From positions 1 through 64,000 of the forward strand of contig JBDRTY010000004.1 in assembly GCA_039801085.1 (NCBI GenBank): a DNA stretch of 64,000 nt. The letters run 5' to 3'. The position numbers and the translations under genes were made by a program. Positions within the stretch are counted from its first letter, which is position 1. Every line of letters starts with the position of its first letter. This DNA is from a candidate division WOR-3 bacterium. Lineage in GTDB: Bacteria > Hydrothermota > Tepidihabitantia > Tepidihabitantales > Tepidihabitantaceae. The notes below the pieces were generated by a model, which was not told the DNA's origin, did no database searches, and saw only the letters and a list, made by a program, of their open reading frames with translations. Positions 6,297 to 62,411 of this stretch are shown here, piece after piece.

Positions 6297-7211
6297 TCAG
6301 CATCCTGCCGCCGACCCGAATCTGCTCCAACGCCCCCGGTGCAGCAGCTCGACGAACGCCTCTACCCGGGTCACCAGACCGGCAATCCCGGTATGCTCAT
6401 CAATGACCAACAGGAGAAACGGCACCCCGTTACTTTGTGCCCGGCTGCGCATGAACTCAGCAACCAGGGAATCGGGACCGCAACCCATCGATACTACCAT
6501 GCAGAACCCGTCAACCCGGCCCAGCAGGTATTCAAACGCATTATACAGCTCCCGCTCATAAACCCAGCGGATATTGTGGGCAAAACCGGACCGGTTCAGC
6601 AACACCCTTTCCGGCAGTGACTCTTTCGTTATGATTTCATAACCATTCTGCCGGAAGGTCCTGATAATTGCCCCGGCGATAAACTCATCATTCAGATTGT
6701 AAAAATGGCCGATCAGTCCTACGGTCCGCCTGCCGGCTGCCGGCAGGTTATCCTCATTTCGCTCCCGCTTCCCTCTTTCCGACCGGAGCGCCCGACGCCA
6801 CCCCTGCCATACCCGAACCGGATTGGCACAGATTGCCAGCCCGGCAGTCAGATGCGCCCGGGTAAAGTTTCCCTTGATACTGGGAGCGATCAGACGCACC
6901 TTTTCACCCAGAATCATCCGGGCAACATCAACGATACCGATCATCTTCGGACAGGCATAAAGTCCGTCATAAAGCCAGTCCAGACGGGGAAAGAAAATTG
7001 CATCCGCATGCTCCTTCAGATAAAGGAGATGTCCGGCAACTATCTTGATCGGCAGACAAACCTCACCTGAAACACACTTCAGCCCCTGCTCCAGAATCAC
7101 TTCATCGGTCTGGGGACTGAGCACCACCTCCACCCCCAGGTTACGCAGATAATTTTCCCACAGCGAGCCATAACGGTAATAAAGCAGTGCCCGCGGTATG
7201 CCGACTTTCAT
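6297..7211 (-). CDS. Acyl-CoA dehydratase activase-related protein, COG3580/DUF2229 type
   Basis: The protein has 304 residues and is the first gene of the five-gene operon. It starts MKVGIPRALLYYRYG and carries the family Cys sites: KCVSGEVCLPIKIVAGH (residues about 46-62), YACPKMIG (about 91) and VVSMGCGPDSLVAEF (about 244). The C-terminal VIDEHTGIAGLVTRVEAFVELL is shared with the following COG3581-type gene. The ATG at 7211 was preferred over an adjacent TTG at 7214 because a TTGACT-16-TAAAAT promoter ends exactly 6 nt upstream, which predicts a leaderless transcript starting at this ATG; there is no Shine-Dalgarno. A charged, poorly conserved stretch around residues 140-157 contains a 19-nt DNA palindrome. 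Function is probably as an iron-sulfur partner of the downstream ATPase. Confidence 0.85.
   Translation of the reverse strand: MKVGIPRALLYYRYGSLWENYLRNLGVEVVLSPQTDEVILEQGLKCVSGEVCLPIKIVAGHLLYLKEHADAIFFPRLDWLYDGLYACPKMIGIVDVARMILGEKVRLIAPSIKGNFTRAHLTAGLAICANPVRVWQGWRRALRSERGKRERNEDNLPAAGRRTVGLIGHFYNLNDEFIAGAIIRTFRQNGYEIITKESLPERVLLNRSGFAHNIRWVYERELYNAFEYLLGRVDGFCMVVSMGCGPDSLVAEFMRSRAQSNGVPFLLLVIDEHTGIAGLVTRVEAFVELLHRGRWSRFGSAAGC
6729..6747. repeat. 19-nt perfect palindrome inside the COG3580-type gene
   Basis: CCTGCCGGC, a single T, then GCCGGCAGG form a perfect inverted repeat with 9-nt arms. It lies within a charged, probably disordered insert of the protein (around NLPAAGRR). With only one central base the DNA can pair across the axis but an RNA hairpin would need to open inner pairs. 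It may be chance in a GC-rich linker or a small inserted palindrome. Confidence 0.6.
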
Positions 7212-7217
7212 CAATTC

Positions 7218-7245
7218 ATTTTAATCCGGTTGACCATCAAGTCAA
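7218..7245 (-). promoter_or_regulatory. Promoter of the activase/Memo/C25 operon, leaderless type
   Basis: TTGACT (7245-7240) and TAAAAT (7223-7218) are separated by 16 nt. The -10 box ends 6 nt before the ATG at 7211, so transcription should begin at or next to the start codon. No Shine-Dalgarno is present. Confidence 0.7.
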
Positions 7246-7640
7246 TAACCAGACCTGTCCACCCCGATACCGCCGCTCCTGCCCGCCACCCGCCCACAGA
7301 GACAGACCTGTACCCATTCACCGTCAAACCGGTTACCAATTTAGACCACCCGTACCCCGACCGGCATAAACCCAGTGTCGACCCCGGATGCCCCACCTGA
7401 ACCCCACCGGCCACATACCTGACCGGCACCCATCATCAGAGCCCCTCATCTGTACCAGAGGCTGCCCGGGGCTAGCCCCCCCTAATGAAGACCAGCGGAA
7501 TAACTACAGGAAAATCAATGAGTTATTAAAAAGCATCCGGAACAGAATCTGTGCAGAACTTTACACACATGACCCGCACTTTTCTCTGTTCACTGTCTTT
7601 ACAGTAATAAGTTCGGTCTTAAACGATTTTTACCGGACAA
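7246..7640. other. Noncoding divergent intergenic region, C-rich on the plus strand
   Basis: About 400 bp lie between two divergent promoters. I see no credible coding frame and no tRNA or riboswitch fold. The part from about 7250 to 7490 is strongly C-rich on the plus strand and contains a 12-nt palindrome GGGGCTAGCCCC at 7468-7479. The rest is AT-richer and leads into the promoter at 7641. Confidence 0.6.
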
Positions 7641-7668
7641 TTGACATCACGATTGGTAATTTTAAAAT
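7641..7668 (+). promoter_or_regulatory. Promoter of the TPR membrane-protein gene
   Basis: Consensus TTGACA (7641-7646) is followed by a 16-nt spacer and TAAAAT (7663-7668), 9 nt before the GTG at 7678. A second reading, AATAAT at 7666-7671, lies exactly 6 nt before the GTG but needs a 19-nt spacer. Either way the leader to GTG would be nearly absent. Confidence 0.65.
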
Positions 7669-7677
7669 AATAACATC

Positions 7678-8469
7678 GTGAAACACCGTCAGAACAGAGA
7701 AAAGGGCTTTATGGTCCGCAATCCGTGGCTGTGGACCGGAATCGGCATTGTAGTAATAATAGTCCTGCTGTTTCTTGCCCGGACCCTTTCCCAGCCGCCA
7801 CCGAACAAGACCGATACCGGCAGGATTGCGCTGAAAAAGCAGAACCTTGATGCCTATACCCTGATGGCGGGCACGATTCAGTTTGATACCGCCCTGCTTG
7901 CCCCACTGGCACCGGATTTTCGCCAGCAGTTGCAGCAGCTGCTGAGAATGATCTCTAATCGGGAACTGGCTGATGTCATTGCCCGGCTGAACCGGATGCG
8001 CCGTAATTCTGCCTATGAATCCGGATTAATCCGGTTATTACTCGGTGTGTGCTATTACGAACTGGGACAGCCTGAACCTGCGCTCAGCGCCTTCCGTTCC
8101 GGGGTGAAGCTACTGGATACACTGACAGCACCGGATGAATATCTCCAGCGGCTTATCGCCGGGCTGGGATTCAACTGCGGCTATCTGTTTCAATTTTATT
8201 CCTATCCGGAAAGCGCCCGGCACTACTACACCCTGAGCCACCGTGCGCTCAGTTCACTGGCAGAAGCGGACCGTCAGTTTGCTGGCAGTCTGCTGAACAA
8301 TCTGGGTCTCGCCCTGGAAACCCTTGGTGACACTGTTAACGCACAACGGTCTTATCTTCAAGCACTGAATTACCTGGACACAACCGGCACGACGCCGGAA
8401 GCGCTGCGCCTGCAGAAAAATCTCCGCCGCAACTTCAGAGCATCTCCTGCGGGTCAACATCAATCCTGA
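7678..8469 (+). CDS. Membrane-anchored tetratricopeptide-repeat protein
   Basis: The protein has 263 residues. A short basic N-terminus is followed by one transmembrane helix (WTGIGIVVIIVLLFLA, residues about 18-33), so the rest is probably periplasmic. Residues about 90-250 form TPR-like helix pairs, for example LGVCYYELGQPEPALSAFR and NNLGLALETLGDTVNAQRSYLQAL. No enzymatic motif is seen; a scaffold role is likely. GTG at 7678 follows the promoter almost directly (leaderless). The alternative is ATG at 7711, with AAAGGG 4 nt upstream and a leader of about 36 nt. The 3' end overlaps the convergent priA by 35 bp. Confidence 0.75.
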   Translation: MKHRQNREKGFMVRNPWLWTGIGIVVIIVLLFLARTLSQPPPNKTDTGRIALKKQNLDAYTLMAGTIQFDTALLAPLAPDFRQQLQQLLRMISNRELADVIARLNRMRRNSAYESGLIRLLLGVCYYELGQPEPALSAFRSGVKLLDTLTAPDEYLQRLIAGLGFNCGYLFQFYSYPESARHYYTLSHRALSSLAEADRQFAGSLLNNLGLALETLGDTVNAQRSYLQALNYLDTTGTTPEALRLQKNLRRNFRASPAGQHQS

Positions 8470-10318: not shown

Positions 10319-10334
10319 GGACCGGAAGGGAACC

Positions 10335-15480: not shown

Positions 15481-18234
15481 TTACTGCCGTTTTTTCATCC
15501 GTTGAGAAAAACGGCGAATCAGTTTTTCCAGCTCCACCGCCCAGAACACCGTGGTACTGACTGCAAGTGCCAGAATCAGCTCTCCCGCGGACAGTGCCCT
15601 GGTTGTGAACACCCGCTGGGCAAACGGAATGTAGAGTAATGCCAGTTGCAGCAACAGGGTAAGGATAAATGTTCCCAGCAATGTGCGGTTGCTCATCAGG
15701 CCGAGACTGAAGAGTGAATCCCGCTGGGACCGCAGTGCAAAAGACTGAAAGAGCTGACTCATCGTCAGAACCGTAAATATCACTGTCCGCCAGCTTTCAC
15801 TGTCATTTCGCCACATAACCCAGCCGGCAAAAAGCGAAATCAGCCCGAGCAGCACACCGGACCAGAGAATATTAAATGCCAGCCCGTGGGCAAAGATACT
15901 TTCCTGCAGCGGGCGCGGTGGCCGGTGCATGACATCGCGTTCCGGACCCTCAATTCCCAGTGCCAGTCCGGGAAGACCGTCAGTGACAAGATTAACCCAG
16001 AGAATATGCAATGGCGTCAGCGGCAGTGGCATACCCAGGAGCGGTGCCAGAAGCATCACGATAATTTCACCGGTATTGGAGGCAAAAGTATAACGGATGA
16101 ATTTGCGGATGTTATCATAAATTGTCCTGCCTTCCTGGACTGCGGCGACAATAGTAGCAAAGTTGTCATCAAGAAGCACCATATCGGCCGCCTCTTTTGC
16201 CACATCAGTACCTGTAATGCCCATCGCCACTCCGATATCCGCTTTTTTTAACGCCGGGGCATCGTTAACACCATCCCCAGTCATCGCCACGACCTGATTG
16301 AGACTTTGCAGTGCCAGCACGATATTCAGTTTGTGCTCTGGTGCAACCCGGGCAAAAATACTGGTCCGGGCAACGAGCGGTCTGAGTTCCTCAGGTGATT
16401 TCTCTGCCAGATCGTTTCCCGTCAGGCAGTCAGAATCTGCATCCGCGCCTCCAATGCCGATATCATTGGCGATATACCTGGCGGTCAACGGATGATCACC
16501 AGTTATCATTACCGGACGGATACCGGCCTGCCGGCATAACCTGACTGCGTCCCTCACTTCTGGCCGCGCAGGATCAATCATTCCGATCATGCCGATAAAA
16601 CACAAACCCTGTTCAATCCCCTCCCTACATCCCGCCTCCTCACCTGGTTTCAACGGACGGAAGGCAACACCAAGTACCCTCATTCCCTTTTCACTCAGCC
16701 GGTTCTGGGCATCAGTGATCCGCTGTCGCCACTGCTGGTCTAGGGGCCTGAACTTCAAATCCGATAAAACCGAACTGGAAACATCAAGCAGCAGATCAAC
16801 CGCACCTTTAGTAAAAATCAACCCTGCCTGTTCCGGAACCAGCTGCCGGATGGTCTCCAGGAGTAACCGCTCATTGCCGTCAACCTGAAACTCAGGTGTC
16901 ATCAGCCGGTGGAGAGTGCTCATTCTCTTCCTTTCCGACGAAAAGGGGACTTCACCAATTCTGGGCAGAACTTGCTGAAGAGAACGCTGATGAATGCCCA
17001 GTCTGATCCCGGCCAGGAGTAACGCCGTCTCGGTTGGGTCCCCTAGCAGTCGGACATTATCCCCCTGTATTTCCAGCACCGCATCATTACACAACACCGC
17101 ACCGGCACTGAGCAGCAGTAATGCCTTTCCTGCAGAATCATGCTTTATGGCTACTCTGCCTTCCTGTTCAATTGGCAGATTAAGCTGATCACCGGCAACA
17201 TCCAGAATTGTTACTGTCATTTTATTCTGAGTCAGCGTTCCAGTTTTATCCGAACAGATAACTGTTACCGAGCCCAGCGTCTCAACCGCATTCAGTCGTC
17301 GAATCAGAGCATTGCGATTGAGCATTCTTCTCGCCCCCAGTGTCAATGCAATCGTTACTACTGCCGGTAACCCTTCCGGCACCGCAGCCACTGCCATGCT
17401 GACCGCTATGAGAAACATCGTCCGCCACTCACCGCCGCGCAGCACACCAAGCACGAAAATTATCCCAACAATAATCAGCACCGCCACTGCCAGTTCCCTG
17501 CTTAGGCGTTCGAGGCGTTTTTGGAGGGGTGTCGGTTCCCTTTTAACCGTCTGCAGAACAGCCGCAATTTTCCCCAGTTCTGTATTCATGCCCGTTTCGG
17601 TCACGACCATCAGACCTTTGCCGGCGACGACTGCGGTACCCATGTAGACCATATTCCGGCGTTCCGCGATAGGTGTTTCACCGGCCATCTCAAATGTACA
17701 GCTGGGGTTCTTATCAACCGGCTCTGATTCACCGGTCAGTGCCGCTTCGGAAACCCTCAGATTAACCGCTTCAATCAGTCGCCCGTCAGCCGGAATATGC
17801 CCCCCTGCCTCCAGCAATACAATGTCACCGGGAACCAGCTCCCGGGAATAAATTTCCTCCACATGACCGCCCCGCCGTACCCGCACTTTTGGCACTGCCA
17901 GTTGCTTTAATGCCTGCAGTGTCCTCTCTGCCCGGTACTCCTGGATAAAGCCAAGCACAGCATTAAGCAGGACAATTGCCGCAATCGCACCTGCATCGAT
18001 AAATTCCTTGAGAAAAACTGAAACTACACACGCCCCCAGCAGCATCAGTATCAGCACCGAAGTGAACTGCGACAGAAATATGGCAGCCGGACTTCTCCCA
18101 CCTTGTTCCCGAATCTCGTTCCTGCCAAACCGGGTGAGCCGCTGGTGCACCTCAGCCGGATCCAGTCCCCGATCACGATCTACCTTTAACTCTCTCAGCA
18201 CCTGATTGATCGAAGTCCGGTGCCAGCTTTTCAT
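15481..18234 (-). CDS. Ca2+-type P-type (P2A) ATPase
   Basis: The protein has 917 residues with the full P2 layout: N-terminal cation-ATPase domain, TGES actuator loop ([15 protein letters not shown]), phosphorylation site [10 protein letters not shown] at Asp329, hinge [17 protein letters not shown] and ten membrane helices. Cation-site residues match SERCA: PEGLPA in M4, SNTGE in M5 and NLVTDGLP in M6. Ca2+ export is thus more likely than Na+/K+ exchange, but Mn2+ or other ions cannot be excluded. The ATG at 18234 lies 6 nt after a weak -10 (GATTTT) with TTGATA 16 nt further up, which fits the leaderless pattern. It heads the operon with the barrel, tamB and priA genes. Confidence 0.93.
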
Positions 18235-18240
18235 GCCGAT

Positions 18241-18268
18241 AAAATCAGGATTAATTTCTGAATATCAA
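18241..18268 (-). promoter_or_regulatory. Possible leaderless promoter of the P-type ATPase operon
   Basis: TTGATA (18268-18263), a 16-nt spacer and GATTTT (18246-18241) end 6 nt before the ATG at 18234. The -10 box is weak, but the spacing equals that of the better promoters in the window. Confidence 0.45.
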
Positions 18269-19794: not shown

Positions 19795-20379
19795 TTACTC
19801 CTTACCGGAAAAACCATCGTCAACCGACAGCCGCAACCGGATCAGCGGAGTATAAACCGGGCCAGCAGCACGAAGTTCGCTCTGATAAACAATCACCTCT
19901 GAAACCAGCCATTCTGAACTGATGAAGGATTTACCGCTAATAAACTGAGCATTAACTGGCTCCCGTAACCGCCCCAAAGTAAGATGGGGACTAAATGGTC
20001 TTTTTTCAGGTACAAACCCGATTTGCTGCAGTGCCTGAACTACTCTTTTCTGGAGTACAGTCACTCGGTCCGCGCCCGCTCCTACTCCTGCCCAGATCAC
20101 CCGCGCCCGGTTCATACTCGGGAAAACCCCCAGACCGGCCAGTCGACAGATAAACTCAGGAAAATCGGATATTGATTGTCTCAGAGCGGATTCTGCGTTT
20201 CCAATGAACTCGGGGGTTACATCACCAAGAAAAGCTAATGTGATATGCATCTGCTCCGGCTTCACCCATTTCACAGGGAATTCTGTTTCTACTTTCAGAT
20301 TTTTCAAGAGCTGAGCGAGCTCACCTTTCACCGTTGCTGAAGTATCAACCGCAACAAAACTCCGAATTTTTTCAGTCAT
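19795..20379 (-). CDS. thpR: RNA 2',3'-cyclic phosphodiesterase (LigT/ThpR family)
   Basis: The protein has 194 residues and the two catalytic HxTx motifs of the 2H phosphoesterase superfamily, HITL (near residue 44) and HLTL (near 127), in the usual spacing, plus the family start IRSFVAVD. It is expected to hydrolyse 2',3'-cyclic phosphate ends of RNA. The ATG at 20379 was chosen over an upstream TTG because MTEKIRSF is the typical family start and because a TTGACT-16-CATTTT element ends 6 nt upstream. No Shine-Dalgarno is visible. A 160-bp gap with the nfeD promoter follows it. Confidence 0.9.
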   Translation of the reverse strand: MTEKIRSFVAVDTSATVKGELAQLLKNLKVETEFPVKWVKPEQMHITLAFLGDVTPEFIGNAESALRQSISDFPEFICRLAGLGVFPSMNRARVIWAGVGAGADRVTVLQKRVVQALQQIGFVPEKRPFSPHLTLGRLREPVNAQFISGKSFISSEWLVSEVIVYQSELRAAGPVYTPLIRLRLSVDDGFSGKE

Positions 20380-20385
20380 GGAGAT

Positions 20386-20413
20386 AAAATGCCCGGATAG
20401 CAATAGAAGTCAA
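20386..20413 (-). promoter_or_regulatory. Possible leaderless promoter of thpR
   Basis: TTGACT (20413-20408), 16 nt, CATTTT (20391-20386), 6 nt, ATG. The -10 box keeps only the A at position 2 and the T at position 6 of the main consensus bases, so this call is weaker than others in the set. Confidence 0.45.
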
Positions 20414-25812: not shown

Positions 25813-26528
25813 GTCCGCACCTCCTGAATAATCCTTTTCATTTCAAACACTGCTTCCTTTAAACCAACAAAAACCGCCCGGGCGATGATCGCAAAACCGA
25901 TGGAAAAACCCTGGGCAATATTCTCCTCGAGTATCGGAACAACATTGGAATAATCCAACCCATGGCCGACATGAACAGTCAGTCCCGAAGTCCGCGCTGC
26001 CTCCGCGGCAATTTTCAGACGCCTGAGCTGCAAATCGCGCCGCACCCGATCCTTGCTGTAACGGTCAGTGTTCAATTCTACAACTTGAGCCCCGATCTCT
26101 GCTGCGCTCTTAATTTGATCCGGATCGGGTTCAACGAATATACACACCCTGACCCCTGACTTTTTCAAAGATGCAACTATTCTCTGCAGTGCCCTTTTCT
26201 GTTTTATGACATCAAGCCCCTGTGTGGTAGTGACTTCAGTCACCACCTCCGGCACAAGCGTGACCTGAGCAGGTTTTATTCTGCGAAGAAAGTTAACCGT
26301 TGATGTTACTGGCGCAGCTTCAACCGTCAATTCAGTTTTGATCGTTTGGCGCAAAAGTTTGACATCGCGGAAATTAATATGTCGCTGATCCTGTCGCAAA
26401 TGAACAGTAATGCCATCCGCTCCCCCCAGCTCTACGAGCGTTGCCGCCTGAACCGGATCGGGGAAATTTTCGCGCCGCGCCTGGCGTAATGTGGCAATAT
26501 GATCGATATTCACCGACAGCAAACGCAT
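25809..26528 (-). CDS. pdxJ: Pyridoxine 5'-phosphate synthase
   Basis: The protein has 239 residues and a TIM-barrel fold with the family start LLSVNIDHIATLRQARRE, then GADGITVHLRQDQRHI, LVPEVVTEVTTTQGLD and VHVGHGLDYSN. It condenses 1-deoxyxylulose 5-phosphate and 3-amino-2-oxopropyl phosphate to pyridoxine 5'-phosphate, in the DXP-dependent route of vitamin B6 synthesis. It is the first gene of the pdxJ-secD-secF-pgpA-cinA operon. A near-consensus promoter ends 6 nt before the ATG, so its mRNA is probably leaderless. Confidence 0.96.
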   Translation of the reverse strand: MRLLSVNIDHIATLRQARRENFPDPVQAATLVELGGADGITVHLRQDQRHINFRDVKLLRQTIKTELTVEAAPVTSTVNFLRRIKPAQVTLVPEVVTEVTTTQGLDVIKQKRALQRIVASLKKSGVRVCIFVEPDPDQIKSAAEIGAQVVELNTDRYSKDRVRRDLQLRRLKIAAEAARTSGLTVHVGHGLDYSNVVPILEENIAQGFSIGFAIIARAVFVGLKEAVFEMKRIIQEVRT

Positions 26529-26534
26529 TATGCG

Positions 26535-26563
26535 ATTTTAGACAAGAAATTTAATACTGTCAA
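26535..26563 (-). promoter_or_regulatory. Leaderless-type promoter of the pdxJ-sec operon
   Basis: Consensus TTGACA (26563-26558), a 17-nt spacer and TAAAAT (26540-26535), then 6 nt and the ATG at 26528. This is one of the clearest examples of the pattern. Confidence 0.75.
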
Positions 26564-28965: not shown

Positions 28966-28993
28966 TTGAATTGGTAAATTCCAATGCTATTTT
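28966..28993 (+). promoter_or_regulatory. Leaderless-type promoter of the plus-strand GT4 gene
   Basis: TTGAAT (28966-28971), 16 nt, TATTTT (28988-28993), 6 nt, ATG at 29000. AAGG occurs within the 6-nt gap but is too close to the ATG for a normal ribosome site. Confidence 0.6.
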
Positions 28994-28999
28994 AAGGCT

Positions 29000-30079
29000 A
29001 TGAACCTGCTCGTTGATGCCTCATTTCATACCGGCATCAGAGTGGGAATTGCGCGCTATATCGAATGTCTGGTACGGGAATTAAGTTCTCTGTGCAATGT
29101 CACGCTGCTTACCTCTGTCCCGGAAGTGTTTTCGAGTGTAAAATGCAACACAATTTCAATCCCCGCATGGACTAAAAGTCACCGTGGCAGGCTGTTGTGG
29201 CAATTTACCAAACTGAGAAACTATTGCATAACAGATTATGATCTGCTTTTCTGTCCAACTCCGGTGGCGCCACCATTCTGTTCAATCCCGGTCATATCTG
29301 TCGTCCATGATCTGACACCTCTCATTGCCCACCAGCTCCATGGTTCTAAGTATAAAGCAAGCTTTCTGGTCGCACTCAAAAGTCTTGCATGGGCAGATTA
29401 TATAGTTGCTGATTCTCATTATACGAAACAACAGATTATCAAAAGAGGTTTGTTTCCAGCTGAAAAAATAAAAGTAATTCATCTTGGACCCGGGATCGTT
29501 GAATCTTTCGGAAATTGTGACTTGGGGCTCGAATTTCAACCTTATATCTTGTATGTCGGGGGCCATATCCCAAATAAAAATGTTCCCCGACTGATTACAG
29601 CCTTTTCCCAAATTAACCATCCTGCTCACACTAAATTGGTGCTCGTTGGCTGGGGGACACCGGAACAGATTGGCTTAACCCTCGCCACCATTGACAGAAC
29701 AGGCATACGTGACCGCGTCATCCTTATGCCCGAAATATCTGACCAGGAATTATCAAGTCTGTATCACCACTGTTCTCTGTTTGTTTTCCCCTCACTCTGT
29801 GAAGGCTTCGGTCTGCCGGTTCTGGAGGCAATGTACCATGGTGCCCCGATCGCCTGTAGTTATTCCTCCAGTTTACCGGAAATTGCTGCTAATGGCGCTC
29901 TCTATTTTGATCCGACACGAACAAGAAGCATCCGTAACACGGTTGAATTACTCCTCAACAATCAAACCTTGTGCCATCAATTAAGCAGCACAGCCCGGAA
30001 ACGTGCTCAATTGTTCTCCTGGAAGAACGCTGCTCAGGAATTATTACAGTTAGCCGGGAAAGTCGTTCGCACCCGCTGA
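29000..30079 (+). CDS. Family 4 (GT-B) glycosyltransferase, AT-richer than neighbours
   Basis: The protein has 359 residues with a GT-B fold: NLLVDASFHTGIRVGIARYI at the N-terminus, VVHDLTPLIAHQL, YVGGHIPNKNVPRLITAF, FVFPSLCEGFGLPVLEAM and YSSSLPEIAANGALYFDP in the donor domain. It is the only plus-strand gene in the polysaccharide cluster and its DNA looks AT-richer than its neighbours, which may mean recent acquisition. Its 3' end overlaps the convergent O-antigen ligase gene by 30 bp. Sugar specificity cannot be read. Confidence 0.88.
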   Translation: MNLLVDASFHTGIRVGIARYIECLVRELSSLCNVTLLTSVPEVFSSVKCNTISIPAWTKSHRGRLLWQFTKLRNYCITDYDLLFCPTPVAPPFCSIPVISVVHDLTPLIAHQLHGSKYKASFLVALKSLAWADYIVADSHYTKQQIIKRGLFPAEKIKVIHLGPGIVESFGNCDLGLEFQPYILYVGGHIPNKNVPRLITAFSQINHPAHTKLVLVGWGTPEQIGLTLATIDRTGIRDRVILMPEISDQELSSLYHHCSLFVFPSLCEGFGLPVLEAMYHGAPIACSYSSSLPEIAANGALYFDPTRTRSIRNTVELLLNNQTLCHQLSSTARKRAQLFSWKNAAQELLQLAGKVVRTR

Positions 30080-35285: not shown

Positions 35286-37786
35286 CAATGCGCCTCCCCC
35301 CAGCTTCTGCCTACCCCGATATCGACCTTCAATGGAACTTTAAGCTGCCAGGCATTCTCCATCTCCGATCGGACCATATCCCTTACTGCCGAACACTTTT
35401 CCTCCTCCACCTCCAGCAACAACTCATCGTGGATCTGAAGTATCATTCCACCACGCACACCCATCTCCTGCAACCGCTGGTCTATTCTGATCATCGCCGA
35501 TTTCATAATATCCGCAGCTGAACCCTGCATCGGGGCATTCAGTGCCATCCGGAGTGCCATCTCTACCTGCTGCCGAATTTCACTGCTGATTCCGGGAATG
35601 GGCCTCATTCTGCCTGAAATCGTGCGCACATACCCATCACGTTTCGCCACCTCGATTAGCTGTTCGCGCCACCGGGCGACTCCGGGAAATTTCAAAAAAT
35701 ACTCCTCCATAAAAACCCTTGCCTGTTCCCGGGGAATATCCATTCGGACAGCAAGACCCCAGTCACCCATACCGTAAATAAGACCGTAATTTACCATCTT
35801 GGCGATTCTGCGATGCTCAGGAGTAATTTGTTCAGGCGGTATATTCAGAATGGCTGAAGCGGTAGCGACATGAATGTCTTCGCCATTCTGGAAAGCCGCA
35901 ATCAGATGTTCGTCCTCGCTGAAATGAGCCAAGACCCTGAGTTCAATCTGAGAGTAATCAGCTGAAATCAATACCATACCATGATCCGCGATAAAGCCCT
36001 TTCTTATTTTTTCCCCCAGTTCACCACGTATAGGAATATTCTGAAGATTTGGTTCGGAACTCGACAGCCTCCCGGTACTGGTTCCCCACTGATTAAAACG
36101 GGTATGAAGGCGATGAGAAACCGGGTCGGCCATTGTAGGCAAGGGCGCCAAGTAGGTAGTACATAATTTCTCCAGTTCGCGGTAACGCAATATTTCAGCA
36201 ACAATCGGATGCTCACTTACCAGATTGGCTAATACCTCAGAACTGGTTGAAAAGCCGGTCTTGGTCTTTTTTCCTGTTGGCAATTTTAGATGGTCGAACA
36301 AAATCTCTCTCAACTGTTTTGGGGAACTGATATTGAACTGTCTCCCAGCAAGCTGCCAGATCTTACTTTCAATCGCATGGAGCTCTCCGCGTAAATCCCT
36401 CTCCAAGCTCCGGAAAAACTCCACATCGATTTTAACTCCGCGCTCTTCCATCTGCGCCAGAACCGGAACCAACGGCATTTCTAAACTATCGTATACCGAA
36501 GTCAAACCCCGTGCCAGCAGTTCGGGTATTAACGAATGGTAAACTCTAACTGCCCAGCCTGCTTGCTCAGATGGTGTTCGGACTTCAACACTCCGGTGTA
36601 ATATCTGCCCGATAATATCAGCCGGGTTAAATCGTTTTCGATTCGGATCGATCAACCATGCCCCGATACAATTATCAAAGAAAGGGGGGACGATTTTTAA
36701 CCGATACGGGCGCAGAATTTTAATCTGCTCTTTGAAATCAAATCCTGCCTTGATGAGAGAAGCTGATTGCAGAATCTGCTCGATAATCTCCCGGCACTCA
36801 ACAGGAATCAGCACAACCTTTTCCCCGGAAACTGACACCCACAAACCACGCTCCGGCTCCCAAGCGATACCTGCTATTCCTGTTTTGTGCAACTCTTCTA
36901 CAAACTGTTCGGTAGTGCGGTTCAATACGGTATTCACAACTTCAATTTTGGGGGTTTCTGCCTCATCGGTCTCCCTGAGCAGTGAACTGAACTCCAGCTC
37001 CTGGTAAAGTTGAACGAGTCGATTCTTATCCGGCTTTCCGGGGATTAAACTCTCAAGCTCCACTTCAATCCCGGCTGCAGTATCGATTTTCGCCAGCCGG
37101 CGGGATAGTAAAGCGAGATCCAAATAAGGCTGCAACTTTTCTTCTTTTTGTAAAGCCACCTCCAAGCTTCCATGTTTAAGCAGAATAGACTGAGCCCGCT
37201 TCGGACCAATCCCGGGCACACCAGGGATGTTATCGACTGCATCGCCTGCCAAGGCAAGGTAATCCGGTACCTGCTCCGGTAAGATACCCAACTTATCCTT
37301 GACATCATCCACCCGATAATATTTCTCCCGATAAGGATCATAGACTGAAACCATCCGGCTCACCAGTTGCAAAAGGTCTTTGTCCGAGCTGACGATTACC
37401 ACTTCCAGCCCTTTTTCCGCGCCCAGCCGGGCAAATGTGCCAATGACATCATCAGCCTCATATCCGGGAATTTCAAAAATTTTCACACCCCATGCCTGCA
37501 CCAGTGCTTTGGCATAGGGAACGGAATGAACCAATTCTGCCGGTACTTTCGGTCGCTGTGCCTTGTATTCACTGTAAAGCTCATCCCGGAACGTCTTTCC
37601 GGGAGCATCAAATACTACCGCGCAGTAATCCGGTTTCAGTTCCCTCAGTACCTTCCGTAATGTATTGGCAAAACCAAAAATTCCGGAAGTATTCATCCCC
37701 CGGGAATTGCGCAGTGGACTTCTGATAAAGGCAAAAAAACTGCGATAAAGTACCGAATGCGCATCCACCAGCACCAGTCTGCTCAT
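35285..37786 (-). CDS. polA: DNA polymerase I, proofreading-deficient, Tyr in O helix
   Basis: The protein has 833 residues, almost the length of Taq polymerase. Residues 1-290 are the 5' nuclease (LVLVDAHSVLYRSFFAF, GYEADDVIG, DKDLLQLV). Residues about 300-430 are a vestigial 3'-5' exonuclease: the DTE-type motif reads GIAWEPERG and the second motif reads KAGFDFKEQ, so proofreading residues are lost. The polymerase has YSQIELRVLAH, RRIAKMVNYGLIYGM and IHDELLLEV. Tyr667 replaces the usual Phe of the O helix (Phe667 in Taq, Phe762 in E. coli). The ATG at 37786 lies 6 nt after a TAAAAT box, so the mRNA is probably leaderless. It heads the wecB-wzz-wzx-ligase operon. Confidence 0.96.
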   Translation of the reverse strand: MSRLVLVDAHSVLYRSFFAFIRSPLRNSRGMNTSGIFGFANTLRKVLRELKPDYCAVVFDAPGKTFRDELYSEYKAQRPKVPAELVHSVPYAKALVQAWGVKIFEIPGYEADDVIGTFARLGAEKGLEVVIVSSDKDLLQLVSRMVSVYDPYREKYYRVDDVKDKLGILPEQVPDYLALAGDAVDNIPGVPGIGPKRAQSILLKHGSLEVALQKEEKLQPYLDLALLSRRLAKIDTAAGIEVELESLIPGKPDKNRLVQLYQELEFSSLLRETDEAETPKIEVVNTVLNRTTEQFVEELHKTGIAGIAWEPERGLWVSVSGEKVVLIPVECREIIEQILQSASLIKAGFDFKEQIKILRPYRLKIVPPFFDNCIGAWLIDPNRKRFNPADIIGQILHRSVEVRTPSEQAGWAVRVYHSLIPELLARGLTSVYDSLEMPLVPVLAQMEERGVKIDVEFFRSLERDLRGELHAIESKIWQLAGRQFNISSPKQLREILFDHLKLPTGKKTKTGFSTSSEVLANLVSEHPIVAEILRYRELEKLCTTYLAPLPTMADPVSHRLHTRFNQWGTSTGRLSSSEPNLQNIPIRGELGEKIRKGFIADHGMVLISADYSQIELRVLAHFSEDEHLIAAFQNGEDIHVATASAILNIPPEQITPEHRRIAKMVNYGLIYGMGDWGLAVRMDIPREQARVFMEEYFLKFPGVARWREQLIEVAKRDGYVRTISGRMRPIPGISSEIRQQVEMALRMALNAPMQGSAADIMKSAMIRIDQRLQEMGVRGGMILQIHDELLLEVEEEKCSAVRDMVRSEMENAWQLKVPLKVDIGVGRSWGEAH

Positions 37787-37792
37787 CGGCAA

Positions 37793-37820
37793 ATTTTATC
37801 ACATGCATCCTGCTTTGCAA
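37793..37820 (-). promoter_or_regulatory. Leaderless-type promoter of polA and the polysaccharide operon
   Basis: TTGCAA (37820-37815), 16 nt, TAAAAT (37798-37793), 6 nt, ATG at 37786. The -35 box matches consensus at four of six bases. No Shine-Dalgarno is present. Confidence 0.6.
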
Positions 37821-47072: not shown

Positions 47073-47102
47073 TTGACATCCAACTTAATCACAATATATT
47101 AT
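47073..47102 (+). promoter_or_regulatory. Leaderless-type promoter of glyS
   Basis: TTGACA (47073-47078) is followed by 18 nt and TATTAT (47097-47102), which ends 6 nt before the GTG at 47109. An overlapping TATATT at 47095-47100 gives a 16-nt spacer. No Shine-Dalgarno is seen. Confidence 0.7.
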
Positions 47103-47108
47103 AACACT

Positions 47109-49190
47109 GTGGCGATTCTACTCCTCGAAATTGGAACCGAAGAACTTCCGCCCGGTGTGGTGGAAAACGCCGCATTTGAACTCCGGCACCGGTTGCTGAA
47201 CCTCTTAAGTGAAAATAACCTCCCGGTGGGAAGCGATCAGCTCTTCTGGACTCCAAGACGTTTAGCGGTAAGAATAAACGACCTGGCACTGACAAAACCG
47301 GCTGTTGAAGTTGAAATCCAGGGACCGCCGAAAAAAGCCGCCTTTGACGCTGACGGTAACCCCACAAAAACCGCCACCGGATTTGCCCGCAGCCACGGCA
47401 GATCAGTTGAAGACCTCTATGTGAAAACGACTGAGCGCGGGGAGTATGTATTTCTGAAAAAAACTCTGCCCCCGGTTCCCACCGAAGCAATACTCGGACA
47501 GGAACTTCCTTCTCTCATCAGCACCCTACCCTTCCCTAAAACCATGCGCTGGGATGACACTGGGATCCGCTTTTCCCGTCCGATCCGCTGGATATTATGC
47601 CTGCTGGATTCTTCTCCCATCCGGTTTACCCTCGGCAGCATTATGGCGGACCGCTATACCTTAGGCCATCGCAACTTCACATCCGAACCTCTGCCGGTAT
47701 CAGCACCCCAGGACTATGAACAGCTGCTCCTTGAGCACAAGGTGATCGCCGACCCGAAACAGCGGGCAGCGTTCATTCAAGACCGTCTCCAGCTCCTTGC
47801 CTGCTCGGTAAACGGTCAGATAGTCGGCGACAAGGATCTGCTCGAGGAAACGCTCAACATCACCGAATACCCCGAACCGCTGCTCGGCACTTTCGATCCT
47901 GAATTTCTCAAACTTCCCCGCCCGGTACTCACTACCGCTCTGCGCATGCATCAACGCTGTTTCTCGATAGAGGACACCCAAGGTAACCTGCTTTCCTGTT
48001 TCATCGCGGTACTCAATACCCCGGACTGCGACACCGGACTCGTCCGCCGCTGGTACGAACAGGCAATTGAATCCCGTCTCCGAGACGCCCGTTTCTTTGT
48101 TGAAGCCGATCTGAAAACCGGGTTGGAACCGCTTGTAGAGCAAGAAAAAAATGTCACCTGGATTGAAGGCCTGGGCAGCTACTACGACAAGACCATGCGG
48201 CTGCTACAGATCTGTCACCATCTTGCGGAAACCGCGAGCATTCCTGCACCGGAAAAACTGGATCGTGCTGCCTATCTCTGTAAAGCCGACCTGTTAACCA
48301 ATCTGGTCCGGGAAAAGGAGTTTACTGCACTTCAGGGAATTGTCGGTTCCATCTATGCCCGGCTTTTAGGTGAAGACCCGGTTGTTGCCCAGGCGATCGG
48401 CGAGCATTACCTTCCCAAAACCGCTGATGACCCTCTGCCCCGCTCTATTCCCGGTGCACTTCTCAGCATTGCCGACAAAATCGACAACATCTGCGCTACC
48501 TATCTTACCGGGAACATCCCGACCGGTTCTGAGGACCCCTTCGGTGTCCGGCGTCAGGCAACTGGCATACTGCGGATCATTCTCCATCATGGCCTGCCGG
48601 TAGCGATTGACCGGCTGATTGAAACCACGCTGAACTTCTTCGCAGCAAACAAAACTACGGAAATTGTGCGGCTGATTCTTTCCCTTTTCCAGGAAAGACT
48701 GAATGCCCTGTTGATCGAAAATGGCATCCCCTACGATGTGGCCAATGCGGTTCTCAGCACTGTCTGGCACACTCCCGCAGAAGCGCTGGCGCGGGCGCAC
48801 AGCCTTGTGGAATTCAGCCACTCCCCGGACTTTGAAAAACTGATTACAGGGCAGAAAAGAGTTGTCAACATCCTGCGCGGTCAGACAGTTGCCGGACTCC
48901 CGGACCCGAACCTGTTGACAGAACCGGCTGAGAAGGAACTGTTCAATCAGGCAAAGACTATCGAACCCGAGCTCAACCGGTTAATCGAACAGCAGCACTA
49001 CCACGCCGCCCTGCAGTTACTGCTGAACCTACGTCCGGCAATTGACCGGTTGTTTGACGATGTGCTCATTATGTGCCCGGACGAAAAAATCCGGACCAAC
49101 CGCCTGAAACTCCTCCACTACCTCCGGTCGCTCTTTACCCGAATTGCCGACCTTTCAGAAATTGTGCTTGAGGGCATAAAACCGGCCTGA
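47109..49190 (+). CDS. glyS: Glycyl-tRNA synthetase beta subunit
   Basis: The protein has 693 residues, normal for the beta chain of the tetrameric enzyme. It starts AILLLEIGTEELPPGVVENA, has the tRNA-synthetase segments ALRMHQRCFSIED and KADLLTNLVREKEFTALQG, and the HD-like GEHYLPKTADDPLP region, and ends with the anticodon-binding segment. The alpha subunit gene glyQ, usually directly upstream, is not adjacent and not in the window. The GTG at 47109 is the family-consistent start; the longer frame begins with a TTG that is part of the -35 box. Confidence 0.95.
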   Translation: MAILLLEIGTEELPPGVVENAAFELRHRLLNLLSENNLPVGSDQLFWTPRRLAVRINDLALTKPAVEVEIQGPPKKAAFDADGNPTKTATGFARSHGRSVEDLYVKTTERGEYVFLKKTLPPVPTEAILGQELPSLISTLPFPKTMRWDDTGIRFSRPIRWILCLLDSSPIRFTLGSIMADRYTLGHRNFTSEPLPVSAPQDYEQLLLEHKVIADPKQRAAFIQDRLQLLACSVNGQIVGDKDLLEETLNITEYPEPLLGTFDPEFLKLPRPVLTTALRMHQRCFSIEDTQGNLLSCFIAVLNTPDCDTGLVRRWYEQAIESRLRDARFFVEADLKTGLEPLVEQEKNVTWIEGLGSYYDKTMRLLQICHHLAETASIPAPEKLDRAAYLCKADLLTNLVREKEFTALQGIVGSIYARLLGEDPVVAQAIGEHYLPKTADDPLPRSIPGALLSIADKIDNICATYLTGNIPTGSEDPFGVRRQATGILRIILHHGLPVAIDRLIETTLNFFAANKTTEIVRLILSLFQERLNALLIENGIPYDVANAVLSTVWHTPAEALARAHSLVEFSHSPDFEKLITGQKRVVNILRGQTVAGLPDPNLLTEPAEKELFNQAKTIEPELNRLIEQQHYHAALQLLLNLRPAIDRLFDDVLIMCPDEKIRTNRLKLLHYLRSLFTRIADLSEIVLEGIKPA

Positions 49191-49867: not shown

Positions 49868-49895
49868 TTGACTCCCTCCTGTCTTATGCTAATCT
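49868..49895 (+). promoter_or_regulatory. Leaderless-type promoter of the TPR lipoprotein and pyr genes
   Basis: TTGACT (49868-49873), 16 nt, TAATCT (49890-49895), 7 nt, ATG at 49903. No Shine-Dalgarno is seen. Confidence 0.55.
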
Positions 49896-49902
49896 TTACC
49901 TG

Positions 49903-51231
49903 ATGCCAAGCGGCCGGAATTTGTGCCTGCCCCTGTTTCTATTTCTCGGAATCCTGTTAGCCGGTTGTGCCTACTTTAATACCTTCTATAATGCCCAGCA
50001 GTATTTCCGGGAGGGTATGAGGCTGAAATCGGAGGGAAACGCAGGTCAGGCACAGTCCAAATTTGACCGTTCAATTGAAAAATCAGCACTGGTGATCAAC
50101 CATTATCCCCGGTCCCGCTGGGTTGATGATGCGCTCTATCTGATCGGCAGGGCTTATTTTGAAAAAGGTGAGTATGCCCGGGCTGTAAAATCATTTGAGC
50201 AGCTGGAACTTGTGTTCCCAAGATCAAGATATGTACCCGAGGCAAAACTCTATCACGCGGTCGCACTGATTCGCAACAATCAGCCAGGTGCCGGCAGAAT
50301 GCTTCTTGAAATAGTAAAACAGCGCTATCCGATGCTGAAGGCAGCTGCAAGTTACCATGCGGCAGTTTATGAAATTGAGCAGGGGGATATTAAAGAGGGC
50401 ATCGACTCACTGCTGAAGTTCATTAGAAAATTTCCTAAATCTCAGCATTATCTCCCGGCACTCCGTCTGCTGGCAGACGCCTGCCAGCAGACGGGCCGTT
50501 ATGCTGAGGCGGTCGAATGGTATCAGCGGTATCAATTGCAGGAATCCAATCCCCGGAAACGAACTGAAGCTGGTGCCCGGCTTGCCCAATGCCTGCTTCT
50601 GGACAAAAAATATGCCGATGCGCTCAAAGCAGCCCGGGAGTTCCGGGGCCGATATCCGGATCTGGATGAAGAGTTGAATCTGATAATAGCCAAGGCTCTC
50701 TCTGCTCTGGGGCGGGATGAGGAGGCGGTCGCGGTTCTGGTCAACATTTCAAGCAGCAACACCCGGGGGGCAGAGGCAGCATTTCTCTTGGGCAAGTATT
50801 ACGAACAGCGCCGGGAATTTGTCCGTGCCCGTGCATATTATGATACTGCCCGGCTGCGTCGGGCTGATTCTGAATGGGGTGTTATGGCTACCAAACGTGC
50901 CGCTCTTCTGCAGGCAATCACCTCGGAAACTACCAGCGTCAGCCCCTCGGCAACCGCCCTGTTTCTTTTGGCAGAAATTCACAACCTGAACCTGGCAGAA
51001 TATGATTCGGCAATGACGATCTACCAGCGGGTCGCCGATTCATTTCCCCAGACCGAACTTGCACCCAAAGCCCTGCTGGCGAAAGCCTGGATCCTCCTCC
51101 GGGTAAAACAAGACTCTGCAAATGCGGTACCGGTGCTGAATCGTATCATCGCCAGTTATCCGAAAACCGAATATGCCCGGGCAGCCCAAGAATGGCTGGC
51201 GAAGATCACTTTAAAAGCTAAGCAGCAGTGA
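49903..51231 (+). CDS. TPR-repeat outer-membrane lipoprotein (BamD-like in architecture)
   Basis: The protein has 442 residues. A signal peptide ends with the lipobox LLAGC (Cys22). After YFNTFYNAQQYFREG, about ten TPR-like repeats follow, for example LIGRAYFEKGEYARAVKSF and LADACQQTGRYAEAVEWY. The first repeats resemble BamD/CpoB, where such proteins scaffold envelope complexes, but the protein is longer than BamD. A perfect 12-bp inverted repeat lies within the coding sequence at 50465-50492. The stop overlaps the pyrK GTG by 4 nt, so it is likely co-transcribed with the pyrimidine genes. Confidence 0.85.
   Translation: MPSGRNLCLPLFLFLGILLAGCAYFNTFYNAQQYFREGMRLKSEGNAGQAQSKFDRSIEKSALVINHYPRSRWVDDALYLIGRAYFEKGEYARAVKSFEQLELVFPRSRYVPEAKLYHAVALIRNNQPGAGRMLLEIVKQRYPMLKAAASYHAAVYEIEQGDIKEGIDSLLKFIRKFPKSQHYLPALRLLADACQQTGRYAEAVEWYQRYQLQESNPRKRTEAGARLAQCLLLDKKYADALKAAREFRGRYPDLDEELNLIIAKALSALGRDEEAVAVLVNISSSNTRGAEAAFLLGKYYEQRREFVRARAYYDTARLRRADSEWGVMATKRAALLQAITSETTSVSPSATALFLLAEIHNLNLAEYDSAMTIYQRVADSFPQTELAPKALLAKAWILLRVKQDSANAVPVLNRIIASYPKTEYARAAQEWLAKITLKAKQQ
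50465..50492. repeat. Perfect 12-bp inverted repeat with 4-nt loop inside the TPR lipoprotein gene
   Basis: GTCTGCTGGCAG, loop ACGC, then CTGCCAGCAGAC. All 12 pairs match. It lies within codons for LLADACQQTG of a TPR unit and is not followed by a T-run. Confidence 0.85.
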
Positions 51232-54242: not shown

Positions 54243-54310
54243 TATTTTAAATCAGTCGTTGTAATGCAATTATAAGTGTGCAGTTTTAAACAAGAGCAAA
54301 GGAGGAACAG

Positions 54311-54811
54311 ATGAAAACAGCACTGAAACTCACTACCCTGCTGTTAGGTATCTTCCTCATTCTGGCTGTCGGCGGCTGCCCTAAAAAATGTGTTAAGCCG
54401 GTCGCCGAGGAACCGGTTGTTGTTGAACAGCCGAAGGAAGAATCAGTTGAAACAGCCCCCAAAGTCACTCTGAATCTGCAGACGATTTATTTTGACTTTG
54501 ACAAATCGGAAATCCGGCCTGGCGATGCTCAGATTCTCCAGCGCAATGCTGACCAGATTAAACAGGCAGTCAATCAGGGACAGAAATTTACCGTTACGAT
54601 TGAGGGGCACTGCTGTCCGATCGGGACTTCAGAATATAACATGGCGCTGGGTCAGCGCCGGGCAGAAGCGGCCAAGGCATATCTGGTGAAACTGGGTGTC
54701 GACGGCTCAATCCTCAACACCATTAGTTACGGTGAAGAACGGTTGGTTACAACAGATGAGGCTCAATATCATCTGAACCGGCGGTGTGAATTCAAGGTAT
54801 CTGAAAAGTAA
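54311..54811 (+). CDS. pal: Peptidoglycan-associated lipoprotein Pal
   Basis: The protein has 166 residues. A signal peptide ends in the lipobox AVGGC (Cys24), then a Pro/Glu/Val linker and an OmpA-type domain (TIYFDFDKSEIRPGDAQIL, VTIEGHCCPIGTSEYNMALGQRRA). TDERGT of the usual Pal motif is replaced by CCPIGT. It binds peptidoglycan from the outer membrane. The start has AGGAGG 6 nt upstream. It is the first gene of the Tol-Pal cluster, the reverse of the order in E. coli. Confidence 0.93.
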   Translation: MKTALKLTTLLLGIFLILAVGGCPKKCVKPVAEEPVVVEQPKEESVETAPKVTLNLQTIYFDFDKSEIRPGDAQILQRNADQIKQAVNQGQKFTVTIEGHCCPIGTSEYNMALGQRRAEAAKAYLVKLGVDGSILNTISYGEERLVTTDEAQYHLNRRCEFKVSEK

Positions 54812-57315: not shown

Positions 57316-57342
57316 AAATGTATAAAAGAAGGGAGTAAGAAT

Positions 57343-57891
57343 ATGATCACAATAATAATTGCAATCATCGCAGGATTGCTGATTCTATTAGCAATCGGCA
57401 GCTACAATCTGCTGGTAAGCAGTCGGAACCGGGTTAAAAACGGCTGGCATCAGATTGATGTCCAGCTGAAACGCCGGATTGATCTCATCCCCAACCTTGT
57501 AGAAACAGTCAAAGCTTACGCTGCCCACGAGCGCGAGGTTTTTGAAAAAATTGCCGAAGCCAGAACCCAGGCAATTAACGCCCGCGGTCCCGGAGAGGCC
57601 GCCCGCGCCGACAGCCAGCTGACCTCTACACTGAAAACTCTCTTTGCGCTGGTCGAAAATTATCCGGACCTCAAGGCAAATCAGAACTTTATGCGGCTCC
57701 AGGAAGAACTCACTCATACTGAAAACAAAATTGCCTTTGCACGTCAGTTCTACAATGATGTCGTCCTGGACTACAACAACCGCGTTCAAATGTTCCCTAC
57801 TAACATCATTGCCGCACTCTTCCGTTTCCAGCCTGCGGAATTTTATGAAATTCCTGAAACCGAAAGGGAAGTTCCCAAAGTTAATTTCTGA
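57343..57891 (+). CDS. lemA: LemA family protein
   Basis: The protein has 182 residues: an N-terminal membrane helix ([20 protein letters not shown]) and the helical LemA domain with [36 protein letters not shown] and [14 protein letters not shown]. The N-terminus is probably outside or periplasmic, as in other LemA proteins. It is followed after 6 nt by htpX, the common genomic partner. Function is unresolved in the family. Confidence 0.92.
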
Positions 57892-57897
57892 GACATC

Positions 57898-58818: not shown

Positions 58819-58850
58819 CCGCCATCAATAAAGATCCGAGCCAGCGAAAA

Positions 58851-61800: not shown

Positions 61801-62375
61801 TCCTGTTCTGGTAAACCGGTCCGCATTACCTCAAGATAGAAATTTTCTGATCCAAATATCTCCTGATAGGTCGCAGCTGATGCCATTGCTGTCTGCAGAT
61901 CATCGTGCAGAATATACCAGTTCACCTCACCTTTCAAGCATCCCGATAGTGCGATCAAACCTTCATGATATCTGCTTAAAAGCTCTTTATCAACCCGTGG
62001 TTTGTAATAAAATCCTTCCAGATAGCCCAGAGAAACGAGTTTTATTAAATTGTGATATCCTGTTTCATTTTTGCACAGAAGAGTAAGGTGAAAGCTGGCT
62101 TCGGGAATATCACTTCTTATTTCCCGCTCGCGCCGATTCCGGGGAGCAACATATACTTCAGCGCCGATTATCGGCTTTAAACCTGCATTCCGTGCCGCCT
62201 TGTAGAATTTAACCGCCCCAAACATATTGCCATGATCAGTTAAAGCCAGTGCCGTCATCCCCATCTCCTTTGCTTGCAATACCAGCTCTTCAATTTTAGC
62301 TGCTCCATCCAGAAGACTGTATTCAGAATGGACGTGGAGATGGATAAAATCGACGCCTCTTGTGTTGGGGGGCAT
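58851..62375 (-). CDS. dnaE: DNA polymerase III alpha subunit
   Basis: The protein has 1174 residues: PHP domain at the start (FIHLHVHSEYSLLDG, LALTDHGNMFG), the Pol beta-like NTase palm with VGPGRGSAGGSLVLYCLG and LPDVDVDFADARRGEV, then the tandem helix-hairpin-helix and OB regions (GGIITDRRSRKDKRNRDYL). It is of the DnaE1 length. A longer frame starts at 62486, but the ATG at 62375 was chosen because a TTGACA-17-TATAAA promoter ends 7 nt before it and the PHP motif follows within ten residues. The mRNA is thus probably leaderless. It converges with htpX over a gap of 32 bp. Confidence 0.96.
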   Translation of the reverse strand: MPPNTRGVDFIHLHVHSEYSLLDGAAKIEELVLQAKEMGMTALALTDHGNMFGAVKFYKAARNAGLKPIIGAEVYVAPRNRREREIRSDIPEASFHLTLLCKNETGYHNLIKLVSLGYLEGFYYKPRVDKELLSRYHEGLIALSGCLKGEVNWYILHDDLQTAMASAATYQEIFGSENFYLEVMRTGLPEQEKILPHIAELAKALDIPLVATNDCHYLKPDDARAQDVLLCIQTGKRLKDKDRLRLNASGYYLRSGTEMEKLFQELPSAVRNTRMVAERCELVLDIESRRFHLPAFKPPAPYRNEFEYLTYLAREGLKKRYPRVTQEHTDRLEYELSVIQRMGFAGYFLIVRDIIEYARNNGIPVGPGRGSAGGSLVLYCLGVTEIDPIRYGLLFERFLSPERITLPDVDVDFADARRGEVIEYIRNRYGNDSVAQIITFGTMQARQAVRDVARVLDISIAEADQIAKLIPPGMDLETAEREVTELAMIIRSQPVYQELWNIAKKIEGLNRHASVHASAVVIAPRPLLELVPLYKAPGADVCTQYDMYTLDDIGLLKMDVLGLRTLTVIDEAEKLIRYRVNDFSIRNVSYEDRATYELLQQGATVGVFQLESAGMRDLCKKTRPERLEHIIALIALYRPGPMDLIPKYVSRKNGFVPIEYDHPLLEPVCKETFGIMIYQEQVMQAAQVLAGYTLAQADVLRRAMGKKKPEEMAAQRETFINGCWRHAGIPREKAAKIFELLEKFAGYGFNKSHAAGYAYLSYLTAYLKANYPVEFIAATLTSELGNFDKLASFVAEARRMGIKILPPDINASDVNFTVEANNVRYGLAGLKNVGVGAAVAIVQERNERGSFKDLLDFLVRLRGKVNRKAIEALIKAGAFSCFEASRAKLLNRIDKEISKAASEKLLYLDKQYNLFETAADTAGCTGEELTFEEDDDVNVLSWEKEAFGFYFSSHPLRKYQLEYQALNLLPIEEVGVRGENELVAIGGIITDRRSRKDKRNRDYLVLIIEDFNSSVEVMVFSDLLERYRELLVKDKLVIVQGRIKPRAGSPSGEGKSGDKTGMVQLWATGFIEFSQARDLISGLFIELPIEELTQSKTAEVKVALKQYPGRIPVYLIITNTDGTKRKLRLKEYSVRIEDKLIKELVRLLGQDRLKLTGTLQFSQQSAVFSTNRSA

Positions 62376-62382
62376 ATTATAT

Positions 62383-62411
62383 TTTATATCCAACTTCTCT
62401 CCAGGTGTCAA
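62383..62411 (-). promoter_or_regulatory. Leaderless-type promoter of dnaE
   Basis: Consensus TTGACA (62411-62406), 17 nt, TATAAA (62388-62383), 7 nt, ATG at 62375. An overlapping TAAAAT at 62386-62381 would leave 5 nt and a 19-nt spacer. Confidence 0.65.

Follow-up and report, generated by a model that had tools for sequence, protein, structure and literature searches.

Leaderless gene architecture is known from bacteria of several kinds, and three described systems stand closest to the one considered here. The accessible part of the survey of Zheng et al. (2011; PMC3160421) describes leaderless genes whose start is preceded, at about 10 bp, by a Pribnow-like box, reports 207 of 953 genomes as positive, and gives a leaderless share of 39.4% for Deinococcus-Thermus and a mean of 19.2% (range 2.3–29.8) for Actinobacteria. 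The accessible part of Zhong et al. (2025; PMC12340547) describes a Deinococcus-Thermus −10 motif that stands beside open reading frames, as demonstrated by reporters and transcriptome, and from which transcription is raised by adding a −35 element. GeneMarkS-2 predicts leaderless transcription in 21.6% of bacterial species (figure as quoted in PMC9581028). Here we analyze a 64,000-nucleotide stretch of a candidate division WOR-3 genome (contig C4:1-64000, hereafter 'the window'; genome 1.91 Mb, 7 contigs, 96.8% complete), in which a reading made from the letters of the sequence had reported nine genes with a −10 box set a few nucleotides (nt) before the start codon and had proposed that their mRNAs are leaderless. 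The records closest to the window's DnaE (L003–L006), at 57–65% identity, are named 'candidate division WOR-3 bacterium'.

RNA polymerase usually starts about 6–7 nt downstream of the −10 box, so a box that ends 5–8 nt before a start codon would place the transcript 5' end at, or within about 2 nt of, that codon. Our analysis indicates that sigma-70-type promoters of this genome very probably yield leaderless mRNAs alongside genes led by a Shine-Dalgarno (SD) element. According to this hypothesis, ordinary sigma-70-type promoters would be so placed that transcription starts at the start codon or 0–2 nt before it; these mRNAs would be translated by direct recognition of the 5'-terminal ATG, GTG or TTG; and many other genes of the same genome would use SD leaders. 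The position of the 5' end is predicted from the usual −10-to-+1 distance; initiation, with no SD available, would have to use the 5'-terminal start codon, as is known for leaderless mRNAs elsewhere.

Promoter-to-start distance and Shine-Dalgarno elements

Sites were scored with an E. coli-type −35/−10 matrix; d denotes the number of nt between the end of the −10 box and the start codon, and the usual promoter cut-off was at least 8 bits. Gene-level counts cover 792,936 bases (the window and 37 other stretches of the same genome), in which a simple home-made Markov caller found 603 genes. The split into heads and internal genes needs a called upstream neighbour; 245 genes are operon heads and 309 are internal, and 49 of the 603 were left out.

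The distance count foreseen by the sequence-only reading, with shuffled upstream regions as background, shows a peak near 6 nt that stands above that background. In the whole genome, the pattern TTGAC-N15-19-TANNNT-N6-ATG occurs 52 times, versus 6 for a backward control; the same pattern with an 18-nt gap occurs 8 times, versus 3. Annotation-free distances from TTGAC promoters to ATG, counted over the 792,936 bases, peak at d = 6 (25 cases; 1–13 at each other distance to 40), as do distances to GTG (14 at d = 6; 0–9 at others), and there is no peak at d = 6 for TTG or for the control triplets CTG and ACG. For in-frame starts of heads, d = 5, 6, 7 and 8 give 17, 25, 9 and 18 promoters, d = 9 gives 11, and larger distances, to 40, give 0–8; at d = 6 the other two frames, whose counts run lower at all distances, give 1 and 2. 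Taken together, promoters at d = 5–8 precede 59 of the 245 heads and 24 of the 309 internal genes, versus 10–24 heads and 1–8 internal genes in ten other 4-nt distance windows, and 5.2 heads and 1.9 internal genes for shuffled upstream regions. Once the average count of the other windows is taken off, about 45 heads remain (18%, or about 20% when the threshold is 6 bits), along with about 20 internal genes; as measured with the E. coli-type matrix, the leaderless type then makes up about one-fifth of operon heads and about one-eighth of all genes counted. The start codons at the 59 leaderless-type heads are 40 ATG, 13 GTG and 6 TTG. We conclude that the fixed spacing of about 6 nt is not due to chance and is genome-wide.

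The same counts bear on a reading in which the boxes are not promoters but AT-rich parts of longer leaders, bound by the ribosome or by S1, a role discussed for AT-rich stretches upstream of starts in other bacteria (PMC5397173, in its accessible part). Against it, the signal includes a TTGAC −35 element at the spacing of a promoter, whereas TANNNT without a −35 shows no distance peak among 12,864 sites and is useless as an annotation-free counter; the distance of the box is fixed and in frame; and at dnaE and glyS the geometry outlasts sequence divergence within the family (see below). We regard this reading as very improbable, the least probable of those weighed here, and retain the reading of the boxes as promoter elements.

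In several divergent gene pairs both genes have a leaderless-type promoter, and the two start codons lie about 64–116 nt apart (own genome, C1:156684-156771; L110:4180/4244; L103:3502/3618; L112:9956/10054; L101:14219/14304).

The 3' end of the genome's 16S ribosomal RNA reads GGATCACCTCCTTTC, with the anti-SD intact, and the leaderless-type layout coexists with SD-led genes. An SD match of at least 4 nt occurs at 1 of the 59 heads and 2 of the 24 internal genes with abutting boxes. Shuffles in which the −10 box is held fixed predict 1.8 of 59 and 1.4 of 24; that is, the near-absence of SD at abutting heads arises mostly because the −10 box fills the SD position. An apparent depletion of SD below chance (1 of 59, versus 7.5 from full shuffles) was dropped in view of the 1.8 expected with the box fixed, and no selection against SD at abutting starts is demonstrated. 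Where the promoter stands further out, the pattern is different. Heads with a promoter of at least 8 bits at 14–40 nt and none at 5–8 nt have an SD of at least 4 nt in 29 of 50 cases, with 10.5 expected, and internal genes with a promoter 14–40 nt away have one in 8 of 17, with 3.3 expected; among the 186 other heads, 80 have such an SD at one chosen start, with 37.3 expected. SD elements are therefore enriched at longer-gap heads and nearly absent at abutting heads, which shows that two layouts exist, as had been proposed from the window. We conclude that promoters of one kind are accompanied by an SD where they are placed further out.

Sites in the window and in relatives

All nine sites of the sequence-only reading are present in the window where that reading placed them, and we find a tenth, the GTG gene at 7678. 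By visual comparison with the same-genus genome G001, proteins of which are 74–96% identical at the sites, the layout is kept at 10 of 10 window sites. The sites, and two SD-led starts for contrast, are as follows.

7209..7245, minus strand: start of the COG3580/DUF2229-type gene; TTGACT-N16-TAAAAT-N6-ATG; kept in G001
7641..7680, plus strand: GTG gene at 7678; TTGACA, then TAAAAT 9 nt or AATAAT 6 nt before GTG; kept in G001
18232..18268, minus strand: start of the P-type ATPase gene; weak box GATTTT, 6 nt from ATG; kept in G001
20377..20413, minus strand: start of thpR (LigT-type); TTGACT, weak box CATTTT 6 nt from ATG; kept in G001
26526..26563, minus strand: pdxJ; TTGACA-N17-TAAAAT-N6-ATG; layout identical in G001
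28966..29002, plus strand: GT4 glycosyltransferase gene; TTGAAT-N16-TATTTT-N6-ATG; layout similar in G001
37784..37820, minus strand: polA; TTGCAA-N16-TAAAAT-N6-ATG; layout kept in G001
47073..47111, plus strand: glyS (glycyl-tRNA synthetase beta); TTGACA, TATATT (8 nt) or TATTAT (6 nt), GTG
49868..49905, plus strand: TPR/YbgF-like lipoprotein gene; TTGACT-N16-TAATCT-N7-ATG; layout kept in G001
62373..62411, minus strand: dnaE; TTGACA-N17-TATAAA-N7-ATG; the matrix favours TAAAAT 5 nt before ATG
54290..54313, plus strand (contrast): pal start; AAGGAGG leader; AGGAGG kept in G001, G002, G003 and G009
62660..62683, plus strand (contrast): small gene at 62681; AGGAGG leader; kept in G001

Seven of the nine sites have a strong promoter, with scores of 8.7–15.1 bits and a box at d = 5–8: COG3580-type gene, 12.3; pdxJ, 15.1; GT4, 8.7; polA, 10.4; glyS, 14.3; TPR lipoprotein, 8.7; and dnaE, 13.6 bits (shuffle p from <0.0005 to 0.012). 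The P-type ATPase and thpR sites fall short of this. The tenth site scores 11.6 bits at d = 6 and 14.1 bits at d = 9. The claim that none of the nine has a usable SD holds, with an SD match of at least 4 nt at 0 of 9. For some boxes the claim of an exact 6-nt spacing depends on the register chosen: the matrix favours a spacing of 8 nt at glyS and of 5 nt at dnaE. The contrast drawn with pal and the gene at 62681 stands with respect to the leader, since AAGGAGG and AGGAGG are present; it is not confirmed with respect to the promoter, which had been thought similar to those of the nine: within 45 nt upstream the best promoter score by this matrix is 6.4 bits for pal and 4.0 bits for the gene at 62681. 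Genome G002 has TTGACC and TATACT at polA, where 8 nt separate the box from ATG.

A further site of the window, at 46965 on the minus strand, has a strong TTGACT/TAAAAT promoter (13.3 bits) that ends 13 nt before ATG, with no SD. In its short leader GACTGGAC precedes ATG, an arrangement that G001, G002 and G003 share and G009 nearly shares. An Rfam scan of the window gave no match reaching the gathering threshold.

We searched for dnaE and glyS in the class; each had a match in 62 of 65 genomes, of which the best-scoring 30 loci per gene were returned, such that 29 loci each besides those of the own genome were scored and more distant or partial matches lie outside the sample. Within the family, a promoter of at least 8 bits at d = 5–8 is found at 14 of 15 dnaE loci examined and at 12 of 12 glyS loci with an N-terminus, glyS of family member G010, which lacks an N-terminal match, being set aside. 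Among these loci ATG and GTG are exchanged and spacer sequences differ, and the distance stays at 5–7 nt. At ten glyS loci, which belong to families f6 and f9, there is no such promoter (best score 5.0 bits). The AGGAGG before pal is kept in 4 of 4 relatives inspected. These results show that the promoter geometry is conserved within the family, and that, as had been suggested from the window, layout is sorted by gene: it is stable among relatives where checked, with short spacing at dnaE and glyS and AGGAGG at pal.

Conservation also bears on two further readings. In the first, the promoters are real and the starts are mis-called, the true starts lying downstream behind normal leaders. Starts were called automatically, many genes offer further in-frame candidates, and the absence of SD, being largely built in, supplies no argument against mis-calling. 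On the other side, in many relatives dnaE and glyS show homology to residue 1 or near it at the start that adjoins the box, and shuffles and other distance windows yield far fewer abutting promoters. We consider mis-calling very improbable, if marginally less so than the reading of the boxes as AT-rich leader stretches. In the second, the promoters fire, but promoters further upstream give most of the expression, and leaderless transcripts are minor. That 24 of 309 internal genes carry such promoters, in places where read-through from upstream is likely, speaks for it; that these starts have no SD that a longer transcript could use, and that what the family retains at dnaE and glyS is the abutting promoter, speaks against it. 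This is the likeliest of the three alternatives, and it is still unlikely; we favour the reading in which these promoters give leaderless mRNAs.

Several points count against the reading we favour. First, to judge from the other distance windows, about 14 of the 59 heads may be background. Second, start codons were assigned automatically by a simple home-made gene caller. Third, the absence of SD at abutting starts is mostly built in by the position of the box. Fourth, two of the nine window sites are weak (P-type ATPase, 6.7 bits, p = 0.044; thpR, 6.6 bits, p = 0.03). Fifth, dnaE of G004 has no start candidate in range and counts as the miss within the family. Sixth, outside the family the geometry is present at just 5 of 14 dnaE and 3 of 16 glyS class loci.

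Occurrence in the class, the phylum and beyond

Across 65 genomes of the class, own genome included, the TTGAC pattern with the 6-nt gap occurs 4933 times, versus 290 for the backward control, and with the 18-nt gap 1588 times, versus 299; each of the 65 genomes has more matches at gap 6 than at gap 18. Several of the d = 18 matches listed in relatives bear AGGAGG-like leaders, as expected if +1 falls about 6 nt beyond the box. Elsewhere in the phylum, the other 82 genomes give 2320 matches versus 401 backward, unevenly between families: enrichment is at least 3-fold in 21 of 27 other families, is 1.6–2.3-fold in f14, f17, f20, f21 and f23, and is lacking in f22 (15 vs. 19). Enrichment of TATAAT-N6-ATG, a pattern free of the −35, is seen in f20 (100 vs. 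17), f21 (345 vs. 90) and f22 (180 vs. 83), and these three families may use leaderless promoters with a poor −35 element. In f36 and f37 the −35-free pattern gives little or nothing (15 vs. 33; 264 vs. 213), and the TTGAC pattern is positive (79 vs. 8; 128 vs. 41). No signal appears in a control set of 29 genomes from the family to which a Clostridium record belongs (526 vs. 545).

We also searched 20 named genomes, six of which belong to the window's phylum (L003–L006, L009 and L010) and are all positive. Two of the six, the metagenome-assembled genomes (MAGs) L009 and L010, are labelled Cloacimonadota; a spread of the pattern to Cloacimonadota was considered and dropped, as by genome grouping both apparently belong to the same phylum as the window, and the record label may differ from the grouping used. 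Outside the phylum 3 of 14 genomes are clearly positive: an Acidobacteria-labelled MAG (L059; 38 vs. 3), a Zymogenus-labelled genome (L039; 24 vs. 4) and a Rokuibacteriota-labelled MAG (L043; 11 vs. 0). The remaining 11 range from 0 vs. 0 to 24 vs. 17, with none strongly above control; the largest ratios among them are 7 vs. 2, in an Akkermansia-labelled record, 5 vs. 2 and 11 vs. 5.

Gene classes and comparison with known systems

The sequence-only reading had placed replication and translation genes among the leaderless set. Randomly chosen heads, 30 of 59 of leaderless type and 30 of 54 with an SD of at least 6 nt, were scanned against NCBIfam (10 and 8, respectively, without a family at 1e-15), and sorting by function found weak support at most. 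Leaderless-type heads include RsmD, RtcB-like, GlmU-like, PilT, TolB, IspF, ValS, PurE, NadE, SmpB and HtrA-like proteins and transporters; SD heads include EF-G, L7/L12, L27, trigger factor, Pal-like and beta-propeller repeat proteins and central enzymes.

With ten ribosomal and elongation-factor genes as the reference, leaderless-type genes show slightly lower codon adaptation than genes with an SD (heads, p = 0.27; all genes, 83 vs. 119, p = 0.03), and leaderless-type heads show higher adaptation than heads with neither signal (p = 0.006). None of the ten highly expressed reference genes is of leaderless type; five have an SD of at least 6 nt, four have one of 5 nt, and one has neither signal. 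Despite this trend, the head of the rplR-rpsE-rplO operon looks leaderless. This run (L103:12243-15059), with rplR-, rpsE-, rpmD-, rplO- and secY-like genes named by eye from their N-termini, follows genes of non-ribosomal appearance. The lists of heads hint that SD marks abundant proteins (EF-G, L7/L12, L27, trigger factor), and a rule based on expression level is possible. A broader scheme is one that we advance tentatively and hold to be less likely true than false: mixed initiation throughout the phylum, with leaderless starts that would be early and long held at dnaE and glyS, SD used mainly for the most abundant proteins, and some families relying on −35-free promoters with a strong TATAAT.

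The leaderless architecture, known as it is from other bacteria, appears to be unreported in the WOR-3 lineage: in the searchable literature, outside which most subscription papers and preprints lie, we found no earlier report of leaderless genes in WOR-3 and no paper pairing WOR-3 with Shine-Dalgarno. On our reading, the lineages with leaderless expression on a large scale would come to include a deep phylum, most of it uncultured, in which the promoter signal is clean; gene finders that rely on SD may misplace starts in these genomes. WOR-3 strain sy37, reported to belong to class Hydrothermia (PMC12542636), is now in pure culture (PMC12285271, in its accessible part), so the leaderless claim is directly testable; and since the dnaE and glyS layout is stable in the family, the choice that a gene makes between the two initiation modes is open to comparison.

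The WOR-3 sites resemble the leaderless genes of Zheng et al. (2011) in having a fixed, short distance to the −10 box, in standing alongside SD-led genes, and in making up a sizeable minority of genes; they differ in having a clear −35 element, which follows from the way in which the sites were sought, and in phylum, the positive groups named in the accessible part of that survey being other phyla, with WOR-3 not among them and one genome given as 'unclassified' (PMC3160421). They resemble the Deinococcus-Thermus −10 motif, a promoter for leaderless mRNA, in that the box lies a few bp upstream of the open reading frame and is widespread in the phylum (PMC12340547, in the part consulted); they differ in that TTGAC accompanies the box in the window's class, and in that the WOR-3 promoters are recognized from sequence. 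Families f20–f22, unlike the window's class, have TATAAT-N6-ATG with little or no TTGAC signal. Finally, as in the leaderless class of GeneMarkS-2, to the extent that PMC9581028 describes it, the promoter signal stands right at the gene start, in a genome in which such genes are mixed with SD-led ones.

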